A stretch of DNA of 64,000 nt from Pirellulimonas nuda. GTDB taxonomy: Bacteria > Planctomycetota > Planctomycetia > Pirellulales > Lacipirellulaceae. The notes below the pieces were generated by a model that did no database searches, had not been told where the DNA came from, and saw nothing but the letters and a program-made list of their open reading frames with translations. The position numbers were made by a program, and so were the translations under genes. This document shows, in pieces, positions 1-24,040 of the stretch. Numbering within the stretch: position 1 is the stretch's first letter; each line of letters opens with the position of its first letter. The DNA lies in the NCBI RefSeq assembly GCF_007750855.1, contig NZ_CP036291.1, forward strand, positions 1,178,001 to 1,242,000. Direction: 5' to 3'.

Positions 1-1008
1 GGGCTGTACGAGAAACTCGAGAGCAAGATCGCCGAGAAGATCGGCGTCGAGAGCGTGATCGTCTACCCGACCGTCACGCTGGCCAACCACGGGGTGATCC
101 CGCTGCTGATGCGGAAGCGGTCGCTGCTGCTGACCGACCAAGAGGTGCATAACAGCGTGCAGCGGGCCGCCATCGAGGCCAAGGGCGCCGGCGCCACGCT
201 GGGGTCGTTCATCCACGACGACTTCACGCAGCTCGAGCAAATCCTCGAAGCCCAGCGCGGCCAGCACAGCCACGCCATGATCGCGCTGGACGGCGTCTAC
301 AGCATGGCGGGCACCTACCTGAACCTGCCGCGCTACGAGGCGATCGCCAAGAAGTACGACGCGATGCTGTACATCGACGACGCCCACGGCTTCGGCGTGG
401 TCGGCCCCGAGGGACGCGGCATCGTCAGCCACTACGGCAGCAACTACGACAACACGATCTACGTCGCCTCGTTGGAGAAAGGCCTGGCGAGCCTCGGCGG
501 CTTCGTCGCCGTGCCGCAGGCCGCCCGCGACTACTTCCGCTACAACTCGTACACCTACACGTTCAGCGGGCAGTTGCCCCCGCCGTACCTGGCCAGCGCG
601 CTGACCGCGATGGAGATCCTCGAGCGCGAGAAGGGCGCCCGGCTCACACGGCTGCACGAGCTGATCGGCCGCGTGAAGACCGAGGTGCAAGAGATCGGCT
701 TCGAGGTGATCGGCGAAGACCACCCGTTCCCGCTGGTGATGGTCAAGGTGGGCGAGTTTGAGAACATCCCCGAGGTGTCGCAGTTCTTCTACGACGAGGG
801 GGTGCACATCCTTACGGTCGGATTCCCGGTCATCCCGCAGTCACGCGGCGCCATGGTGCGGATCAGCCTGTCGGCCACCCACGCCGACAGCCAGATCGAC
901 CGGCTGATGGCCGCGTTCCGCAAGCTGCACGCCAAGCTCAACCCGTCGCGAACCCAACAGGACAGCCGTGAATGCCTTGCAGATACTGCCAGCTCGGTCG
1001 CGGCGTGA
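1..1008 (+). CDS. Alpha-oxoamine synthase family PLP enzyme (5' truncated)
   Basis: The reading frame is open from base 1, so the N-terminus lies outside the window. The protein is a fold-type I PLP enzyme of the alpha-oxoamine synthase group (serine palmitoyltransferase, KBL, BioF), which condenses an amino acid with an acyl-CoA or acyl-ACP. Visible motifs are the cofactor-contacting DDAHGFGVVG stretch and the Schiff-base lysine in SLEKGLASLGG (codon 478-480), followed by the family-typical TFSGQLPPPYLASAL. Its 3' end overlaps the next gene by 41 bases, so the two are probably one transcription unit. Because that neighbour resembles bacterial ceramide synthase, serine palmitoyltransferase is the favoured member, but the sequence alone does not exclude the other AOS enzymes. 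The bioB gene in this window is 37 kb away and gives no support for BioF. Confidence 0.88.
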   Translation, partial: GLYEKLESKIAEKIGVESVIVYPTVTLANHGVIPLLMRKRSLLLTDQEVHNSVQRAAIEAKGAGATLGSFIHDDFTQLEQILEAQRGQHSHAMIALDGVYSMAGTYLNLPRYEAIAKKYDAMLYIDDAHGFGVVGPEGRGIVSHYGSNYDNTIYVASLEKGLASLGGFVAVPQAARDYFRYNSYTYTFSGQLPPPYLASALTAMEILEREKGARLTRLHELIGRVKTEVQEIGFEVIGEDHPFPLVMVKVGEFENIPEVSQFFYDEGVHILTVGFPVIPQSRGAMVRISLSATHADSQIDRLMAAFRKLHAKLNPSRTQQDSRECLADTASSVAA

Positions 1009-2098
1009 TCGGAAGCGGTTCCTCGGCCTGCCGGCGCGTATCTATCAAGGCGACCCGTTGTGGGCCCCCGCGCTGGCGGCCGAGGAAAAGGCGCTGGTGG
1101 GCTTCAAGAAGCACCCCTTCCACGCAGTGAACGACGCGCAGTGCTTCCTCGCGGTGCGGGGCGACGAGGCGGTCGGCCGGATCGCCGCGATCCACAACCG
1201 CGAGCACAACGCCCAGCACCAAGACCGCACGGGCTTCTTCGGCTTCTTCGAGTGCCAAGACGACGCCGAGGCTGCCGCGGCGTTGTTTGCTGCCGCGAGC
1301 GGATGGCTGGCCGAGCGCGGCCTCGACCGAATCCGCGGCCCGGCGAACCCCAGCATCAACTACACGCTCGGGACGCTGGTTGAAGGGCACGACGTGCCGC
1401 CGACGTTCATGACCCCCTACAACCCGCCGTATTACGCGGGGCTGATCGAGGGCGCCGGCTTCCAGAAGGAGCACGACCTGTGGGCGCTGCGGATGACGAT
1501 GCCGCAGATGGAAACTATGGCGAGCAGGGTCGAGCGAATCACGCAGCGGCTCACGAAGCAGTACGGCCTGAAGCTGCGGACGTGGTCCGCCACCCCGCGT
1601 CCAGAAGAATTGCGCGAGTTCCTCGGCGTGATCAACAGCTCGCTTCAAGACCACTGGGGCTTTGTGCCGCTCACCCAGAAAGAACTGCAGCGCGCCGCCG
1701 CGGGGCTGCGGCTGCTGCTAGTGCCGGAGCTGGTGATCGGCATCGAGATCGAGGGCCGGTTGGTAGGGGTCACGCTGGCTCTGCCCGACTACAACCCACG
1801 CATCAAGAAGATCGGCGGCCGATTGTTCCCGTTCGGCTTCCTTCAACTGCTCGCCCGCAAGCGGAGCATCAAGAAGCACCGCGTGATGGCCGCCAATGTG
1901 CTGCCGGAGTACAACCGCGCGGGGCTGGGGGTAGTGCTGATCCACGCCTTGATCCTGCGGGCCCGCGAGCTGGGCTGCCAGGAGGTGGAGTACTCGTGGA
2001 TCGCCGAGTCGAACGCGGCGTCGTTCGGCACGCTGGAGAACGCGGGGGCCCATAGGTGCCGGACGTTTCGGGTTTGGGAGCAGTTCATCGCTTATTAG
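968..2098 (+). CDS. GNAT-fold acyltransferase, bacterial ceramide synthase (bCerS)-like
   Basis: This 376-residue protein starts at a GTG inside the end of the preceding synthase gene. The N-terminal half carries LPARIYQGDPLWAPAL and a GNAT-like beta-strand segment FLAVRGDEAVGRIAAI. The C-terminal half has a second GNAT-like segment (GVVLIHALILRARELGCQEVE, here quoted from about residue 317, and ESNAASFGTLENAGA), so it looks like a tandem or extended GNAT fold. From memory, proteins of this length and layout include the bacterial ceramide synthases that N-acylate 3-ketosphinganine and are often encoded near serine palmitoyltransferase genes. Overlap with an AOS gene fits that pairing. The specific function is inferred; an unrelated N-acyltransferase is the main alternative. 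Confidence 0.7.
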   Translation: MNALQILPARSRRDRKRFLGLPARIYQGDPLWAPALAAEEKALVGFKKHPFHAVNDAQCFLAVRGDEAVGRIAAIHNREHNAQHQDRTGFFGFFECQDDAEAAAALFAAASGWLAERGLDRIRGPANPSINYTLGTLVEGHDVPPTFMTPYNPPYYAGLIEGAGFQKEHDLWALRMTMPQMETMASRVERITQRLTKQYGLKLRTWSATPRPEELREFLGVINSSLQDHWGFVPLTQKELQRAAAGLRLLLVPELVIGIEIEGRLVGVTLALPDYNPRIKKIGGRLFPFGFLQLLARKRSIKKHRVMAANVLPEYNRAGLGVVLIHALILRARELGCQEVEYSWIAESNAASFGTLENAGAHRCRTFRVWEQFIAY

Positions 2099-2211
2099 GC
2101 ACTCTATTGCAGTTCCATCGATCAACCTGAGCGGTGGCCGAATTTCATTGACACCACCCCTCTTCGGTGATAACTTCCTGTGGAATCTCATCAATTAGTG
2201 GGGACAATCTG

Positions 2212-4068
2212 ATGTCAATCTTTGCTCCGATACTCACATCTGCTAGTTGTGGCGGGCCCTTTCGCGGTTTCTATATGGGATTAGTTGTTCCCTGGCTGCT
2301 GTCCATTTCGGCTGACAGCGCTTCGGCGATCCAACTGTACTATCACCTAGACGATCCAGGAAGTCTGACGACGGCGGAGAAGGAGGATCCAGTTCGGTAC
2401 GAGCGGCTACTGGGCAATCCAGAGTTCATAGGGAATGACGTTTCACTTTTTTCGTCGGCGCCATTCTATGGGGCGAACCCTTCACAGTTCCGCCCGCACA
2501 TCAATAGCTATGCAACATGGGACCTTTCGGGTGTTGGTCGCAAGTATGCAGGTAGTGGCCCACTAGGCAATCCAGAGGGTAATCACGCGACTATGATAAC
2601 GGAGAGTTGGTTTCTAACCTCTACTCACAGAAGCAGCAATCTTCTGGGGAACCCAATCCGTTTCTACCGTGACAACACTGCTTCCAGTGAATGGTGGGAG
2701 GGAACTGTTCGGGAGGTTGGGGCAGTTGGCAGCAGTACAGACGTGTCCATAGCTCAGGTTCTCGGCTCAAATGACGAGCCTCCACCAGAATGGGTGCGCC
2801 GATACCCGGTGATGAAGCGAAATATTGCTAGTTGGGACAAGTTCCTTGACCCAACGATAGTCCTCGTTGGTACGGCTACGTTCGGCGACCTGCTTGACAC
2901 TTGGGTAGGTTTGAATCGAGTTGACGACGTCGTCGGCGCCAGGACTGGAAATTACACGGGTCCGGGCATCGCCTTTTCAATGACTGAGGATGGTGAGTTC
3001 GGACACGATGAAGCCGTCACGATCGGTGGTGACTCGTCGGGTGCGACATTCGCATACTCGCCAGCTGGGCTCGCGTTGCTTGGAATTCACTCCCAAGCGG
3101 GCATGGATGCGGGCATGGATGCAGACGTCTCTGCGATGTCTTCAGACCTGGAAGCAGCCTTTATTAGTAAGCCTGGAGAGTCAGTGAGATTTGTCACTGA
3201 TCTTAGAGGAGATATGAATGCCGACTTCTCGGTTACCGTGTCAGATCTGCAAATTGTTGCGTCGAACATCGGACAGCCGCATCCTACTGGCGGAGTCTAT
3301 ACTTATTTTGAAGGTGATTTCAATGGAGACGGAATGGTTAGCGTCTCTGATCTGCAGGTTATTGCAGCGAGTTTGAACCAAGGACCGTTGACTCTTCCGG
3401 CCGACTTCAATAAGGACTTTCGAGTGGATCGGGATGACGTAGCAGAGCTAGGCAATCATTGGAATCAGTCCGTTGCTCCAGGTACCGCTGGTGATGCGAA
3501 TCGTGATGGCGTGGTGAATCAGTTGGACGTGTTCCTGGCTGACATGCATAGCAGTATTGATGTCTTTGAACTGCCGACTCCTCCTAGTGGCGCCCCCGTG
3601 CTTCCCGGCGACTGGGTGTACTCAGGATCCGTTAATCACCTCGATCTAGGTGTGTTAACGGCACATTACATGGATGGAATTCAATACGATCCGGGAACGA
3701 ACGGCGACTTAACCGGTGACGGATTTGTACGCATCGCGGACCTTCAGGCGTTTGCAGGTATTCTTGGAGATCCAGAGAGGGTGAGGATTCAGTTTGACGT
3801 GAACTTTGACGGCAAGGTTACAGCCGAAGATTTGGATTCGTTCGCAGTGAATTGGGAAAGCAGTGTATCGGGCGGTTACTCGGATGGCGACTTTGATCTC
3901 AGTGGATATGTGGACAACAATGACTTTATCCTGTATGCACAGTGGTGGGGGTACGGCACTGGGTCTTCCATTGTTCCGCCTGGATCGGCGGTGCCAGAGC
4001 CGAGTGGCTTTGCTGTGTTGGTCATGGTCTGCTTCGGGGCGACTTTGGTGAAGCGTCTCAGGAGGTGA
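2212..4068 (+). CDS. Secreted trypsin-like serine protease with dockerin-type repeats and PEP-CTERM tail
   Basis: An upstream GTG at 2167 would give 633 residues. I prefer ATG 2212 because a GTGGGG ribosome site precedes it and it leads into a hydrophobic signal segment (GLVVPWLLSISA). Numbering from the longer form, a trypsin-like triad is visible: His154 in LTSTH, Asp192 in TDVSIAQV and Ser290 in GGDSSG. From about residue 345 there are roughly seven dockerin-type calcium loops (GDMNADFSVTVSDLQ, GDFNGDGMVSVSDLQ, GDANRDGVVNQLD, GDLTGDGFVRIADLQ, GDFDLSGYVDNND and degenerate copies). The protein ends in a PEP-CTERM signal: VPEPSG, a hydrophobic helix and KRLRR. It is predicted to be exported and sorted by an exosortase system. 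The gene is visibly lower in GC, with more A/T-ending codons, than both neighbours, which suggests transfer or surface-protein turnover. Confidence 0.8.
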   Translation: MSIFAPILTSASCGGPFRGFYMGLVVPWLLSISADSASAIQLYYHLDDPGSLTTAEKEDPVRYERLLGNPEFIGNDVSLFSSAPFYGANPSQFRPHINSYATWDLSGVGRKYAGSGPLGNPEGNHATMITESWFLTSTHRSSNLLGNPIRFYRDNTASSEWWEGTVREVGAVGSSTDVSIAQVLGSNDEPPPEWVRRYPVMKRNIASWDKFLDPTIVLVGTATFGDLLDTWVGLNRVDDVVGARTGNYTGPGIAFSMTEDGEFGHDEAVTIGGDSSGATFAYSPAGLALLGIHSQAGMDAGMDADVSAMSSDLEAAFISKPGESVRFVTDLRGDMNADFSVTVSDLQIVASNIGQPHPTGGVYTYFEGDFNGDGMVSVSDLQVIAASLNQGPLTLPADFNKDFRVDRDDVAELGNHWNQSVAPGTAGDANRDGVVNQLDVFLADMHSSIDVFELPTPPSGAPVLPGDWVYSGSVNHLDLGVLTAHYMDGIQYDPGTNGDLTGDGFVRIADLQAFAGILGDPERVRIQFDVNFDGKVTAEDLDSFAVNWESSVSGGYSDGDFDLSGYVDNNDFILYAQWWGYGTGSSIVPPGSAVPEPSGFAVLVMVCFGATLVKRLRR

Positions 4069-4467: not shown

Positions 4468-4538
4468 TGACCACGGATAGCACGGATTTCGCGGATACGG
4501 AAACGCCCTATCCGTGAAATCCGTGCTATCCGTGGTTC
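4468..4538. repeat. Family A inverted repeat (CCACGGATAGCACGGAT)
   Basis: The arms TGACCACGGATAGCACGGAT (4468-4487, continuing TTC to 4490) and its near-reverse complement at 4516-4538 flank a 25-base centre. The same arm sequence recurs as paired inverted copies at 5799-6052 and 23910-24040, always intergenic. The longer ORF start for the next gene would fall inside the right arm, which argues against that start. Confidence 0.85.
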
Positions 4539-4558: not shown

Positions 4559-5800
4559 ATGGCAACTCCCCACGCAATCGAAGAAGTCGAGCTCCGCGGG
4601 CACATCATCGATAGCCTGCTGCTCCCCAAGGTGCTCGACGCCATCACGGCCGGAGGCGCCGCGTTTACGATCAAGCAGGTCGCTATCGGCAACGGTCGAC
4701 ACGACCCCAGCTACGCGCTGCTAGAAGTGACGGCGCCGACGCAGGCGGTGCTCGACGCGGTGCTGGCGCAGGTGAGCGACCACGGCGCCGTGCCGACCTC
4801 GGCTGCCGACTGCACGCTGGTGGCCGTCGACATGGACGGCGTCTTCCCCGAGGGCTTTTATAGCTCCACCAACCAGAAGACCGAGCTGCGGCTCGGCGGC
4901 AAGTGGCTGCCGGTGGCCGATCAAGAGATGGACTGTGGCGTCGTGGTCGATCCAGACACCAACGCGGCGCGGTGCGTGCCGATGGCCGACGTACGCGTGG
5001 GCCAGCAGGTCGTGGTGGGGCACGCCGGCGTGCGCGTCTTCCCGTTGGAGCGGATCGACGCCGGCCACGCGTTCGCGTTCATGAACAGCCCGGTCTCGAC
5101 CGAGAAGCCCAAACGCGTGGTCGTGCAGCAGGTGGCGCGCGAACTATTCAGTAACCGCAACGGCACAGGAAAGAGCCTGCTGGTCGGCGGGCCCGCGATC
5201 GTGCACACCGGCAGCGGGCCGCTGGTGAGCGAGCTGATCCGCCGCGGCTACCTCGACAAGCTGTTCGCCGGCAACGCGTTGGCGACGCACGACATCGAGC
5301 AATCGTTCTTCGGCACCAGCCTGGGCGTGCATTTAAGCGACGCCCACCTCGCCGAGGCGGGGCACGAGCACCACCTGCGGGCCATCAACCGGGTGCGCCG
5401 CGCCGGGAGCATCCGCGCCGCGGTCGAGTCGGGCCTGATCAAGTCCGGCATCATGCACGACTGCGTGAAGCACAACGTCCAGTTCCTGCTCGCCGGCAGC
5501 ATCCGCGACGACGGCCCGCTGCCGGACGTAGTGACCGACGCCCTCGAAGCCCAGGCCCAGATGCGCGCGGCGGTGCGCGATGTGACGTTCTGCCTGATGG
5601 TCGCCACCACGCTGCACTCGGTCGCGGTGGGGAACCTGCTCCCCGCGTGGGTGAAGGTGGTGTGCGTTGATATCAATCCATCGACCGTGATCAAACTCTC
5701 CGACCGCGGCAGCTTCCAGACCGTCGGCCTGGTGACCGACGTGGAGCCGTTCTTTCGTTCGCTGCTGGCGGAGCTGGACGCGCTGGAGAAGGACGCTTAA
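4559..5800 (+). CDS. TIGR00300/LOR-SDH family ornithine cyclodeaminase (ArgZ/AgrE C-terminal-like)
   Basis: This 413-residue protein belongs to the TIGR00300 LOR/SDH bifunctional-region family. The family includes an archaeal ornithine cyclodeaminase and the C-terminal domain of the cyanobacterial ArgZ/AgrE enzyme, which converts ornithine to proline plus ammonia using NAD. Family features visible are the N-terminal LOR segment (EVELRGHIIDSLLLPKVLD), the FPEGFYSSTNQKTELRLGGK region, and the NAD-binding C-terminal half with LLVGGPAIVHTGSGPLVSEL and VDINPSTVIKL. ATG 4559 is chosen because the upstream extension runs through a repeat arm. The next plus-strand gene encodes the matching arginine dihydrolase domain as a separate protein, so together they would run arginine to ornithine to proline. 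Confidence 0.85.
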   Translation: MATPHAIEEVELRGHIIDSLLLPKVLDAITAGGAAFTIKQVAIGNGRHDPSYALLEVTAPTQAVLDAVLAQVSDHGAVPTSAADCTLVAVDMDGVFPEGFYSSTNQKTELRLGGKWLPVADQEMDCGVVVDPDTNAARCVPMADVRVGQQVVVGHAGVRVFPLERIDAGHAFAFMNSPVSTEKPKRVVVQQVARELFSNRNGTGKSLLVGGPAIVHTGSGPLVSELIRRGYLDKLFAGNALATHDIEQSFFGTSLGVHLSDAHLAEAGHEHHLRAINRVRRAGSIRAAVESGLIKSGIMHDCVKHNVQFLLAGSIRDDGPLPDVVTDALEAQAQMRAAVRDVTFCLMVATTLHSVAVGNLLPAWVKVVCVDINPSTVIKLSDRGSFQTVGLVTDVEPFFRSLLAELDALEKDA

Positions 5801-6052
5801 CCACGGATAGCACGGACCAGCACAGATGAGCGGGGCCAACAGCACTCCCCTCCCCGGCAGGGGGAGGGGCCGGGGGAGGGGGTTGGAGCGGTACACGCGT
5901 TGACGTTGCAATAGCGCGTCGGTCGGAGTTTAGTCCGACAGAACCCGGAGCGTGTACCCGCATCAAACCCCCTCCCCTAACCCCTCCCCCTGCCGGGGAG
6001 GGGGACAGCGCGAGGCCTGCGGCCTTCGCTCGTCCGTGCTATCCGTGGTCAA
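5799..6052. repeat. Nested inverted repeats between the two arginine-module genes
   Basis: The outer arms are family A (5799-5816 and 6033-6052), the first overlapping the TAA stop of the cyclodeaminase gene. Inside them is a second G-rich/C-rich pair, about 5844-5883 (CTCCCCTCCCCGGCAGGGGG and on) with 5965-6004, which can form a long hairpin. No coding sequence is supported here. Confidence 0.8.
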
Positions 6053-6076
6053 ACTTTGTCGCATCAGGAACTAATC

Positions 6077-6925
6077 ATGCCCACGCCGCGGATCTTGATG
6101 TGCCCGCCGGACTACTTCGGCATCGAGTACGAGATCAACCCCTGGATGAACGTGGCGGTCGACGCCGACCACGCGCTCGCCAATTCTCAGTGGCGTGGGC
6201 TGCACGACCTGCTGGTTGATTCGGGCGCTACCATCGAATTGATGGCCCCGGTGAAGGGGCTGCCCGACCTGGTGTTCACGGCAAACGCGGGGCTGATCTA
6301 CCAGGATCGCGTGCTGCTGTCGCGATTCCATCACACGCAGCGGCAGGGGGAGACGCCGCACGACCGGGCGTGGTTCGAGGCCGCCGGGTTCGAGGTGGTC
6401 GACGACCCTCAGGTCAGCGCGGGCGCCTTCGAGGGCGCCGGCGACGCGCTGTTCTGCGGCGACACGCTGCTGGCCGGGTACCGTCAGCGGAGCGACGCCC
6501 TGTTCCACCAAGCGATCGGCGCCCTGCTGGGGGTCCGTGTGCTGCCCGTGGAGCTGGTCGACGCGCGCTACTACCACCTCGACACCTGCTTCTGCCCGCT
6601 GGCGCCGGACGAGGCGGTCTGGTTCCCCGCCGCGTTCGACCGGTACGGCCAAGAAGCGATCGCCGCGGCGGTGCCCAAGCTAATCTCCGTCGAGCGGGGC
6701 GAGGCGCAGCGGTTCGCCTGCAACGCGGTGGTTGTCGGCCGGCGGGTCGTCACCAACACCGGCTGCCCCAAGCTGCACGCAGAGCTCGCCCGGCGCGGCT
6801 ACGAACCCCACGAGACGCCGCTCGACGAGTTCGTCAAAGCGGGCGGCAGCGCCAAGTGTCTGACGCTGCGGCTCGACGGTGAAGAAGCCGCCGGGTGGCG
6901 GGCGCCCCCGTCGGCCGCCCCCTAG
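6077..6925 (+). CDS. Arginine dihydrolase / amidinotransferase-fold enzyme (ArgZ/AgrE N-terminal-like)
   Basis: This 282-residue protein starts at ATG 6077, seven bases after an AGGA site. It has the guanidine-modifying pentein fold seen in DDAH, arginine deiminase and the N-terminal domain of cyanobacterial ArgZ/AgrE. Shared residues include INPWMN near the N-terminus, FTANAG with Asn70 (the Asn reported to distinguish dihydrolase from deiminase chemistry), FEGAGDAL, the catalytic His in YYHLDTCF (His167) and the nucleophile Cys261 in GGSAKCLTL. The expected reaction is arginine to ornithine, CO2 and two ammonia. In ArgZ/AgrE this domain is fused to a LOR/SDH cyclodeaminase; here it is separate and downstream of it. 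DDAH-type activity is the alternative. Confidence 0.85.
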   Translation: MPTPRILMCPPDYFGIEYEINPWMNVAVDADHALANSQWRGLHDLLVDSGATIELMAPVKGLPDLVFTANAGLIYQDRVLLSRFHHTQRQGETPHDRAWFEAAGFEVVDDPQVSAGAFEGAGDALFCGDTLLAGYRQRSDALFHQAIGALLGVRVLPVELVDARYYHLDTCFCPLAPDEAVWFPAAFDRYGQEAIAAAVPKLISVERGEAQRFACNAVVVGRRVVTNTGCPKLHAELARRGYEPHETPLDEFVKAGGSAKCLTLRLDGEEAAGWRAPPSAAP

Positions 6926-23909: not shown

Positions 23910-24040
23910 AACCACGGATAGCACGGATCACACGGATGAATGCACTCCGAGAGACCCCCCTTCGTCTTGATCTCGGCGGTTCGACATCAAAATAAACTTT
24001 CGGGGGGGTCATCCGTGTGATCCGTGCTATCCGTGGTCAA
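23910..24040. repeat. Family A inverted repeat
   Basis: The arms ACCACGGATAGCACGGATCA (from 23911, continuing CACGGATGA) and the matching right arm 24010-24040 enclose about 70 bases. The same arm consensus occurs at 4468 and 5799. Confidence 0.85.

Follow-up and report, generated by a model that had tools for sequence, protein, structure and literature searches.

The window analysed here, a 64,000-nucleotide stretch of the Pirellulimonas nuda genome (contig NZ_CP036291.1, positions 1,178,001 to 1,242,000), carries two adjacent genes, ORF A and ORF B, which very likely encode a two-protein route from arginine to proline, a conserved couple that seems to have been assembled separately from the fused enzymes ArgZ and AgrE. 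ArgZ (Sll1336) and AgrE (Alr4995) of cyanobacteria are bifunctional arginine dihydrolase/ornithine cyclodeaminase proteins with the same two domains and catalytic residues as the pair, and structural alignment gives 46–47% identity for the dihydrolase domain and 39–42% for the LOR part. The pair differs from them in consisting of two proteins, in having the LOR gene first and in using an LOR of another subfamily.

Both open reading frames (ORFs) were confirmed at the position and on the strand given in the initial annotation of this locus (Table 1), which had described two separate, adjacent genes with LOR first and the dihydrolase second. This description holds: ORF A is closed by a stop codon (5798-5800), the frame open around ORF B spans 314 amino acids, and the two are separated by 276 bases (5801-6076), all of which marks them as separate genes. 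Alternative in-frame starts are present for both, a GTG at 4514 for ORF A and a TTG at 6056 for ORF B, and an AGGA at 6066-6069 precedes the ATG of ORF B.

Table 1. Coordinates of the pair, its gap repeat and catalytic codons in the window, of fused planctomycete genes, and of genes beside the pair at other loci.
Feature	Position	Strand	Description
ORF A	4559..5800	+	predicted LOR/SDH ornithine cyclodeaminase (TIGR00300), 413 aa from ATG, separate protein
ORF B	6077..6925	+	predicted ArgZ-type arginine dihydrolase (pentein, guanidine-modifying enzyme), 282 aa from ATG, separate protein
Codon Asn70	6284..6286	+	equivalent of ArgZ Asn71 (FTANAG), mapped by alignment
Codon His167	6575..6577	+	equivalent of ArgZ His168 (YYHLDTCF), mapped by alignment
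Codon Cys261	6857..6859	+	equivalent of ArgZ Cys264 (AKCLTL), mapped by alignment
Nested inverted repeats	5797..6052	none	fill most of the gap between ORF A and ORF B; dispersed repeat, outside the enzymes
Gap repeat, outer arms	5797-5821 / 6028-6052		outer ends carry CCACGGATAGCACGGA
Gap repeat, inner arms	5847-5887 / 5963-6003		second inverted repeat, 41 nt
Fused dihydrolase-LOR gene (ArgZ-type)	G330:C1:5567388-5569448		planctomycete
Fused dihydrolase-LOR gene (ArgZ-type)	G077:C7:23016-25061		planctomycete
Fused dihydrolase-LOR gene (ArgZ-type)	G220:C5:73929-75995		planctomycete
L157 (Nitrospirota)	1-2262	-	PutA (PutA_N, Pro_dh), divergent from the pair
L184 (Omnitrophota)	1-2694	-	PutA (PutA_N, Pro_dh), divergent from the pair
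L190 (Omnitrophota)	1-1158	-	PutA (PutA_N, Pro_dh), divergent from the pair
L169 (Myxococcota)	1037-2524	-	aldehyde dehydrogenase, divergent from the pair
L161 (Nitrospirota)	174-917	+	C-terminal part of aldehyde dehydrogenase at contig end, same strand as the pair

ORF A is very probably an ornithine cyclodeaminase, predicted from its sequence to convert ornithine to proline. It scores 512.2 bits against TIGR00300 (curated cut-off 410.8) over profile positions 4-405 of 407, and matches PF04455, PF21571 and PF21570 far over their cut-offs, the latter two families being named after the C-terminal half of ArgZ. The LOR/SDH protein of Methanococcus maripaludis (3c2q) is its best match both in sequence (E 2.6e-106) and in structure, with a Z score of 40.0 at 48% identity for the predicted model compared with a Z score of 36.5 for ArgZ; the C-terminal part of AgrE and ArgZ is matched by sequence as well. 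The 3c2q structure was solved as an LOR protein without a dihydrolase domain, in a species in which the dihydrolase gene was not searched for. Plasmid records gave a single LOR match, 31% identical.

Which cofactor might ORF A use? NCBIfam names the TIGR00300 family nickel-pincer nucleotide-dependent, and LarB, LarC and LarE are encoded in the P. nuda genome, each over its cut-off. In our survey of the window's class (118 genomes, one per species, drawn evenly) LarC passes its cut-off in 111 and LarE in 113, so that their near-universal presence is little informative. The seven genomes in which LarC is absent all have no LOR, six of them belonging to a single genus, and the LOR-positive draft genomes G287 and G313 have no LarE over cut-off. 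Our limited literature search gave no paper in support of nickel dependence of this family. AgrE has been solved with NAD+, and deoxyhypusine synthase, an NAD-binding enzyme, resembles the C-terminal part of the ORF A model (Z 18.1). The 50 structural matches listed for this model include no LarA chain, an absence that carries no weight.

Profile, fold and tree together support the prediction that ORF B is an ArgZ-type arginine dihydrolase and not an enzyme of the DDAH type. Among PDB sequences, ORF B matches ArgZ (E 4.5e-73) and AgrE (2.3e-69) far better than bacterial DDAH (4.3e-8), and its structural model (mean pLDDT 90.1) superposes on the ArgZ domain with a Z score of 39.5 (root-mean-square deviation 1.6, 268 residues, 47% identity), compared with Z scores of 30.1 for the best DDAH (1h70), 27.3 for AstB and 25.9 for arginine deiminase. 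AstB, the N-succinylarginine dihydrolase, performs a double hydrolysis of the same kind as ArgZ; it shares the fold of ORF B and differs in substrate, which is succinylarginine, and in sequence, at 17–19% identity. The arginine deiminase profile TIGR01078 (arcA) gives only 17.2 bits (cut-off 489.1). We calculated trees from 55 dihydrolase rows and 54 or 55 LOR rows, hand-picked for spread and rich in planctomycetes; L115, whose match ran past a stop, was excluded from the profile scan, and in the LOR tree one stop in L021 was entered as X. All 40 rows of split or fused proteins form one clade of the dihydrolase tree (support 100/98), four actinobacterial rows annotated ddaH form a separate one (100/98), and nine lone planctomycete penteins together with a haloarchaeal row form a third (100/98), with one long-branched row apart.

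The initial annotation had allowed for a DDAH-like enzyme and had named a comparison with ArgZ/AgrE and DDAH, and a phylogeny, among its checks; by sequence, fold and tree ORF B sides with ArgZ, outside the ddaH clade. Its statement on the diagnostic residues stands as well, since FTANAG, YYHLDTCF and AKCLTL are all present and map to ArgZ N71, H168/D170 (D169 in ORF B) and C264, and the two activities it named remain the likely, predicted ones. Two of these positions are altered in PDB entries of the fused enzymes, going by the entry titles: ArgZ N71S covalently bound to a reaction intermediate (6juz), C264S with substrate (6jv1) and AgrE C264A with arginine (6lrh). In an alignment of 55 penteins, with translations ended at the first stop, the equivalents of ArgZ N22, N71, E118, D122, R139, H168, D170 and C264 are identical in all 35 split rows, the window included, and in all five fused rows.

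Part of the evidence nonetheless weighs against this assignment. ORF B reaches 275.5 bits with the arginine dihydrolase profile NF052232, whose cut-off is 450, and the bifunctional ArgZ family NF052231, defined by more than 1025 bits in one protein, is matched here by two ORFs that stay below this score, at 422.7 (ORF A) and 280.1 bits (ORF B). The dimethylargininase profile NF045659 (DdahMtb) follows closely at 254.9 bits, likewise under its cut-off (300), the only Pfam family over cut-off is PF19420 DDAH_eukar, and four actinobacterial proteins named dimethylargininase keep every listed active-site residue, N71 included. These residues are hence necessary, not diagnostic, and do not settle whether arginine or a methylated arginine is the substrate. 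The NF052232 cut-off is also missed by two dihydrolase domains from planctomycete proteins with the ArgZ type of fusion (319.9 and 340.5 bits), and is reached in none of 246 genomes of the phylum and none of the 118 of the class. From such findings one could argue that the pentein is a DDAH or a citrulline-making deiminase, and that its adjacency to LOR reflects a loose association within nitrogen metabolism. We consider this quite improbable, given the fold comparison, the placement of ORF B in the ArgZ clade and the presence of LOR in 75 of the 78 class genomes that have the dihydrolase; citrulline is, to our knowledge, no substrate of ornithine cyclodeaminase.

The actinobacterial family itself adds a further argument. 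Mycobacterium tuberculosis without Rv2323c, a protein of this ddaH type, is reported to be impaired in growth on arginine and to form no proline from this amino acid (PMC4569260). The requirement of Rv2323c for proline from arginine makes the name ddaH doubtful, and dimethylargininase may be a wrong name for the actinobacterial family. Like ORF B, the Rv2323c/NF045659 type is a single-domain pentein with identical active-site residues (seen in the four plasmid copies); it differs in forming its own clade and in its identity to ORF B, which is 38–41%. No LOR was present among the listed genes around these four copies, in gene tables that are incomplete.

Lone planctomycete penteins were also seen apart from these families. 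L044, L045, L047, L058 (f26), L059 (f11), L046, L055, L056 and L060 (f17, f30) make up a second group that has FxANxS or FxANxT instead of FTANAG and an F or Y preceding the catalytic Cys, and that is distinct from both the ArgZ and the ddaH clades. L053 (G191), on a very long branch, carries an Asp at the position of ArgZ Asn71 and may be a deiminase.

How closely are the two genes tied to one another? In the class survey, using the best match per genome and counting LOR from 136 bits (78 genomes) and the dihydrolase from 52 bits (78 genomes), 75 genomes have both, three LOR only, three the dihydrolase only and 37 neither (Fisher p 1.5e-23, uncorrected for kinship). Full-length matches are present in just two of these six one-sided cases, G323 (LOR) and G259 (dihydrolase), and dropping the four partial ones gives p 1.1e-27. 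Weaker matches were excluded, such as dihydrolase fragments in G324 and a 39-bit LOR fragment in G307; the dihydrolase match of G307 is itself a fragment, of 53 bits and containing a stop, and its two fragments are perhaps remnants of both genes. Families f1, f4, f93, f94 and f95 each include genomes with both genes and genomes with neither, which argues that the genes were gained or lost jointly more than once. In the phylum survey (246 genomes, dihydrolase counted from 249 bits) LOR passes its cut-off in 38 and the dihydrolase is found in 13, all within those 38; among the 13, G077 and G220 carry the fused form and, besides the window, G105 and G145 are adjacent in the order of the window. 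LOR thus also occurs alone, and the ArgZ-type dihydrolase hardly ever does.

The survey of adjacency in planctomycetes that the initial annotation had suggested shows the two genes side by side on one strand, LOR then dihydrolase, in 38 of the 75 class genomes with both. The match ends are 29 to 309 bases apart, and the window accounts for the 309. To look further afield, we scanned genome_contigs with the dihydrolase alignment and kept the best 80 of at least 581 relatives, a sample that leans to the window's kin and whose phylum labels are those of the sequence records. In 53 of the best 80 loci the gene immediately upstream of the dihydrolase, on its strand, is an LOR, whole or in part, with 14 to 490 bases separating the match ends; none of the best 80 has an LOR in any other placement. 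Of the other 27, four are ended by a contig edge, and in 23 the sequence upstream extends for 1.3 kb or more. Outside Planctomycetota the arrangement is found in 34 of 38 loci, namely in Nitrospirota (13/15), Verrucomicrobiota (13/14), Myxococcota (2/2), Nitrospinota (1/1), Omnitrophota (2/2) and unassigned records (3/3), and in Bacteroidota in 0/1. Nitrospira moscoviensis (NZ_CP011801.1, L189) and Paludisphaera soli (L160) are among the named strains. Since these 53 loci from six phyla share the order, LOR-first is the usual state of the two-gene form and not a reversal in this genome, and the initial suggestion of a planctomycete form finds no support, the more so as three of the searched planctomycete genomes (G077, G220 and G330) carry fused genes.

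On the LOR side the neighbour is PutA or an aldehyde dehydrogenase in five of the best 80 loci, from three phyla (Table 1). The three PutA genes include the aldehyde dehydrogenase part where the contig extends far enough, and the aldehyde dehydrogenase of L161 ends about 30 bases upstream of LOR. Such neighbours fit proline as the product and a catabolic direction. Against a tight and general coupling it must be said that these are only five loci, that 31 of the 75 two-gene class genomes have the genes far apart on one contig (17) or on different contigs (14), so that joint transcription is not obligatory, and that the 276 bases in the window are mostly repeat, where the 53 relatives have 14 to 215 bases between match ends apart from one with 490. 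In the remaining class genomes the genes are 0.9 to 11.6 kb apart (five) or fused (one). A PutA-type gene is not found beside the pair of the window.

A catabolic route from arginine through ornithine and proline to glutamate, of the kind drawn for cyanobacteria with AgrE and PutA (PMC8262935), fits best. ORF B would convert L-arginine to L-ornithine, CO2 and two ammonium. Following the mechanism from work on ArgZ, Cys261 would presumably attack the guanidine carbon with His167 as acid/base, and Asn70 would permit a second hydrolysis, so that ornithine leaves rather than citrulline. ORF A would then cyclise ornithine, releasing a third ammonium and yielding proline, by means of a cofactor in its C-terminal domain, and a proline dehydrogenase whose gene lies at another place in the genome would lead on to glutamate; the single proline dehydrogenase match in this genome lies in a frame of 1260 amino acids, about the size of PutA. 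The genome has no match to PF00491 (arginase/agmatinase). We infer the two activities, the direction of flow and the joint expression of the genes across the repeat-filled gap.

The couple could also be read as two separate functions, with LOR making proline from biosynthetic ornithine and the dihydrolase acting in nitrogen release alone. LOR does have independent uses: 25 of the 38 LOR genomes in the phylum survey have no dihydrolase match of at least 249 bits, and the control archaea M. jannaschii and H. volcanii have LOR over cut-off and no match to NF052232. We nevertheless give this reading very little credence. ProC is over cut-off in this genome and in 116 of the 118 class genomes, so the pair is not required for proline as such; LOR is accompanied by the dihydrolase in 75 of 78 class genomes, and PutA or aldehyde dehydrogenase adjoining the pair suggests breakdown.

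What is the relation of the two-gene form to the fused enzymes? G330, of the same class as the window, encodes a fused dihydrolase-LOR protein in a single frame of 816 amino acids, and both trees place the fused planctomycete genes with the enzymes of cyanobacteria, so that a fused gene was probably transferred between Cyanobacteria and Planctomycetota. The LOR tree unites the fused rows in a clade (100/99) that groups with 11 lone planctomycete LORs (100/98), and the operonic LORs form another clade (99/97), which also takes in the remaining LORs of the class and five lone ones. The first grouping is kept when ArgZ is added and LG+G4 is used (16 rows, 100/99). The penalty is 37.2 log units when the fused LORs are forced into the operonic clade as a whole (approximately unbiased (AU) test, p 0.0057), and 132.5 when they are forced together with just the operonic and other class rows (p 0.0001); these p values are too small, as the groups were named after inspection of the tree, and the outgroup is one archaeal row covering only the protein core, both of which count against our reading. 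Ten of the 11 lone-LOR genomes on the fused side have no NF052232 match, and the eleventh (G045) has one of 148.6 bits on another contig; at 18 lone-LOR loci, with up to 1.5 kb on each side, no dihydrolase was found. Because the fused LOR comes from another subfamily than the operonic LOR, operon and fusion seem, from these sequences, to be two separate couplings of dihydrolase and LOR, the fusion having the other order and the other LOR.

The dihydrolase tree is less decisive, which likewise tells against a firm history. The fused rows (ArgZ, AgrE, G077, G220 and G330) form a clade (100/99) that lies inside the split rows, and a constrained tree that unites all split dihydrolases has a log-likelihood 10.45 higher (AU p 0.83), leaving split-first versus fused-first undecided. 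If the operon genes had fused once and swapped order, the pair would be the direct ancestor of ArgZ/AgrE, in line with the shared clade of fused and split dihydrolases and with the nesting in the free tree. This seems unlikely to us, as a topology that unites the split rows is accepted by the test and in fact has the better likelihood, and as the fused LOR lies outside the operonic clade, so that at most the dihydrolase half could derive from an operonic gene. For the pair as a unit, the ancestral form proposed in the initial annotation thus finds no support. The reverse history, in which the pair is a secondarily split ArgZ whose halves were swapped after the break, might be suggested by the fused genes in the same class and in two more planctomycetes, and is highly improbable in view of the different LOR subfamily of the pair and of the split arrangement across six phyla. 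On balance we lean towards a module that was invented at least twice, once as the operon and once as the fusion with a different LOR subfamily, in which case the split proteins would be expected to form a complex of their own.

The gap between the genes holds a dispersed inverted-repeat element, similar to repetitive extragenic palindromic (REP) or miniature inverted-repeat transposable (MITE) elements, that ends in CCACGGATAGCACGGA and occurs in the window at 4470-4536, 5797-6052 and 23913-24035. A hairpin with this motif stands directly upstream of ORF A, and copies of the element thus flank ORF A on both sides. The genome contains 33 exact copies of the motif (18 + 15) as opposed to none of the reversed control, and it occurs seven times as facing pairs with 49 to 459 bases between. 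Probably, the repeat was inserted into a formerly tighter operon.

Some further observations concern the surroundings of the pair. Upstream in the window, 2167-4068 encodes a dockerin type I protein (Dockerin_1, 1.8e-19) with a C-terminal tail that, judged by eye, is PEP-CTERM-like. Near the pair in Verrucomicrobiota a polymerase X-like gene recurs (Pfam on one copy), and two more neighbour clusters, of six and four loci, each span two phyla; other clusters are antisense to the pair and were taken to be spurious frames. The contig L151 bears the title Bacteroidales, but its dihydrolase shares 59% identity with ORF B, and it is probably a mis-binned planctomycete contig.

In conclusion, the chemistry of this route is already known from ArgZ/AgrE; new, as far as our limited literature search shows, are the wide two-gene operon, its order, the link to PutA, and the evidence for fusion and operon as separate inventions, no title or abstract on a split ArgZ having been found in that search of limited coverage. 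The cyanobacterial route would extend to other phyla, including Nitrospira (N. moscoviensis) and the planctomycetes, where a dihydrolase that scores under the NCBI naming cut-off could be labelled dimethylargininase or deiminase-like. For AgrE, the conditions that set ornithine release versus full conversion had not been investigated (PMC8262935). As nature offers both a fused and a two-protein version, the channelling of ornithine becomes testable, and if there were indeed two inventions, a complex of the split proteins may perhaps pass ornithine between active sites with no covalent tie between them.

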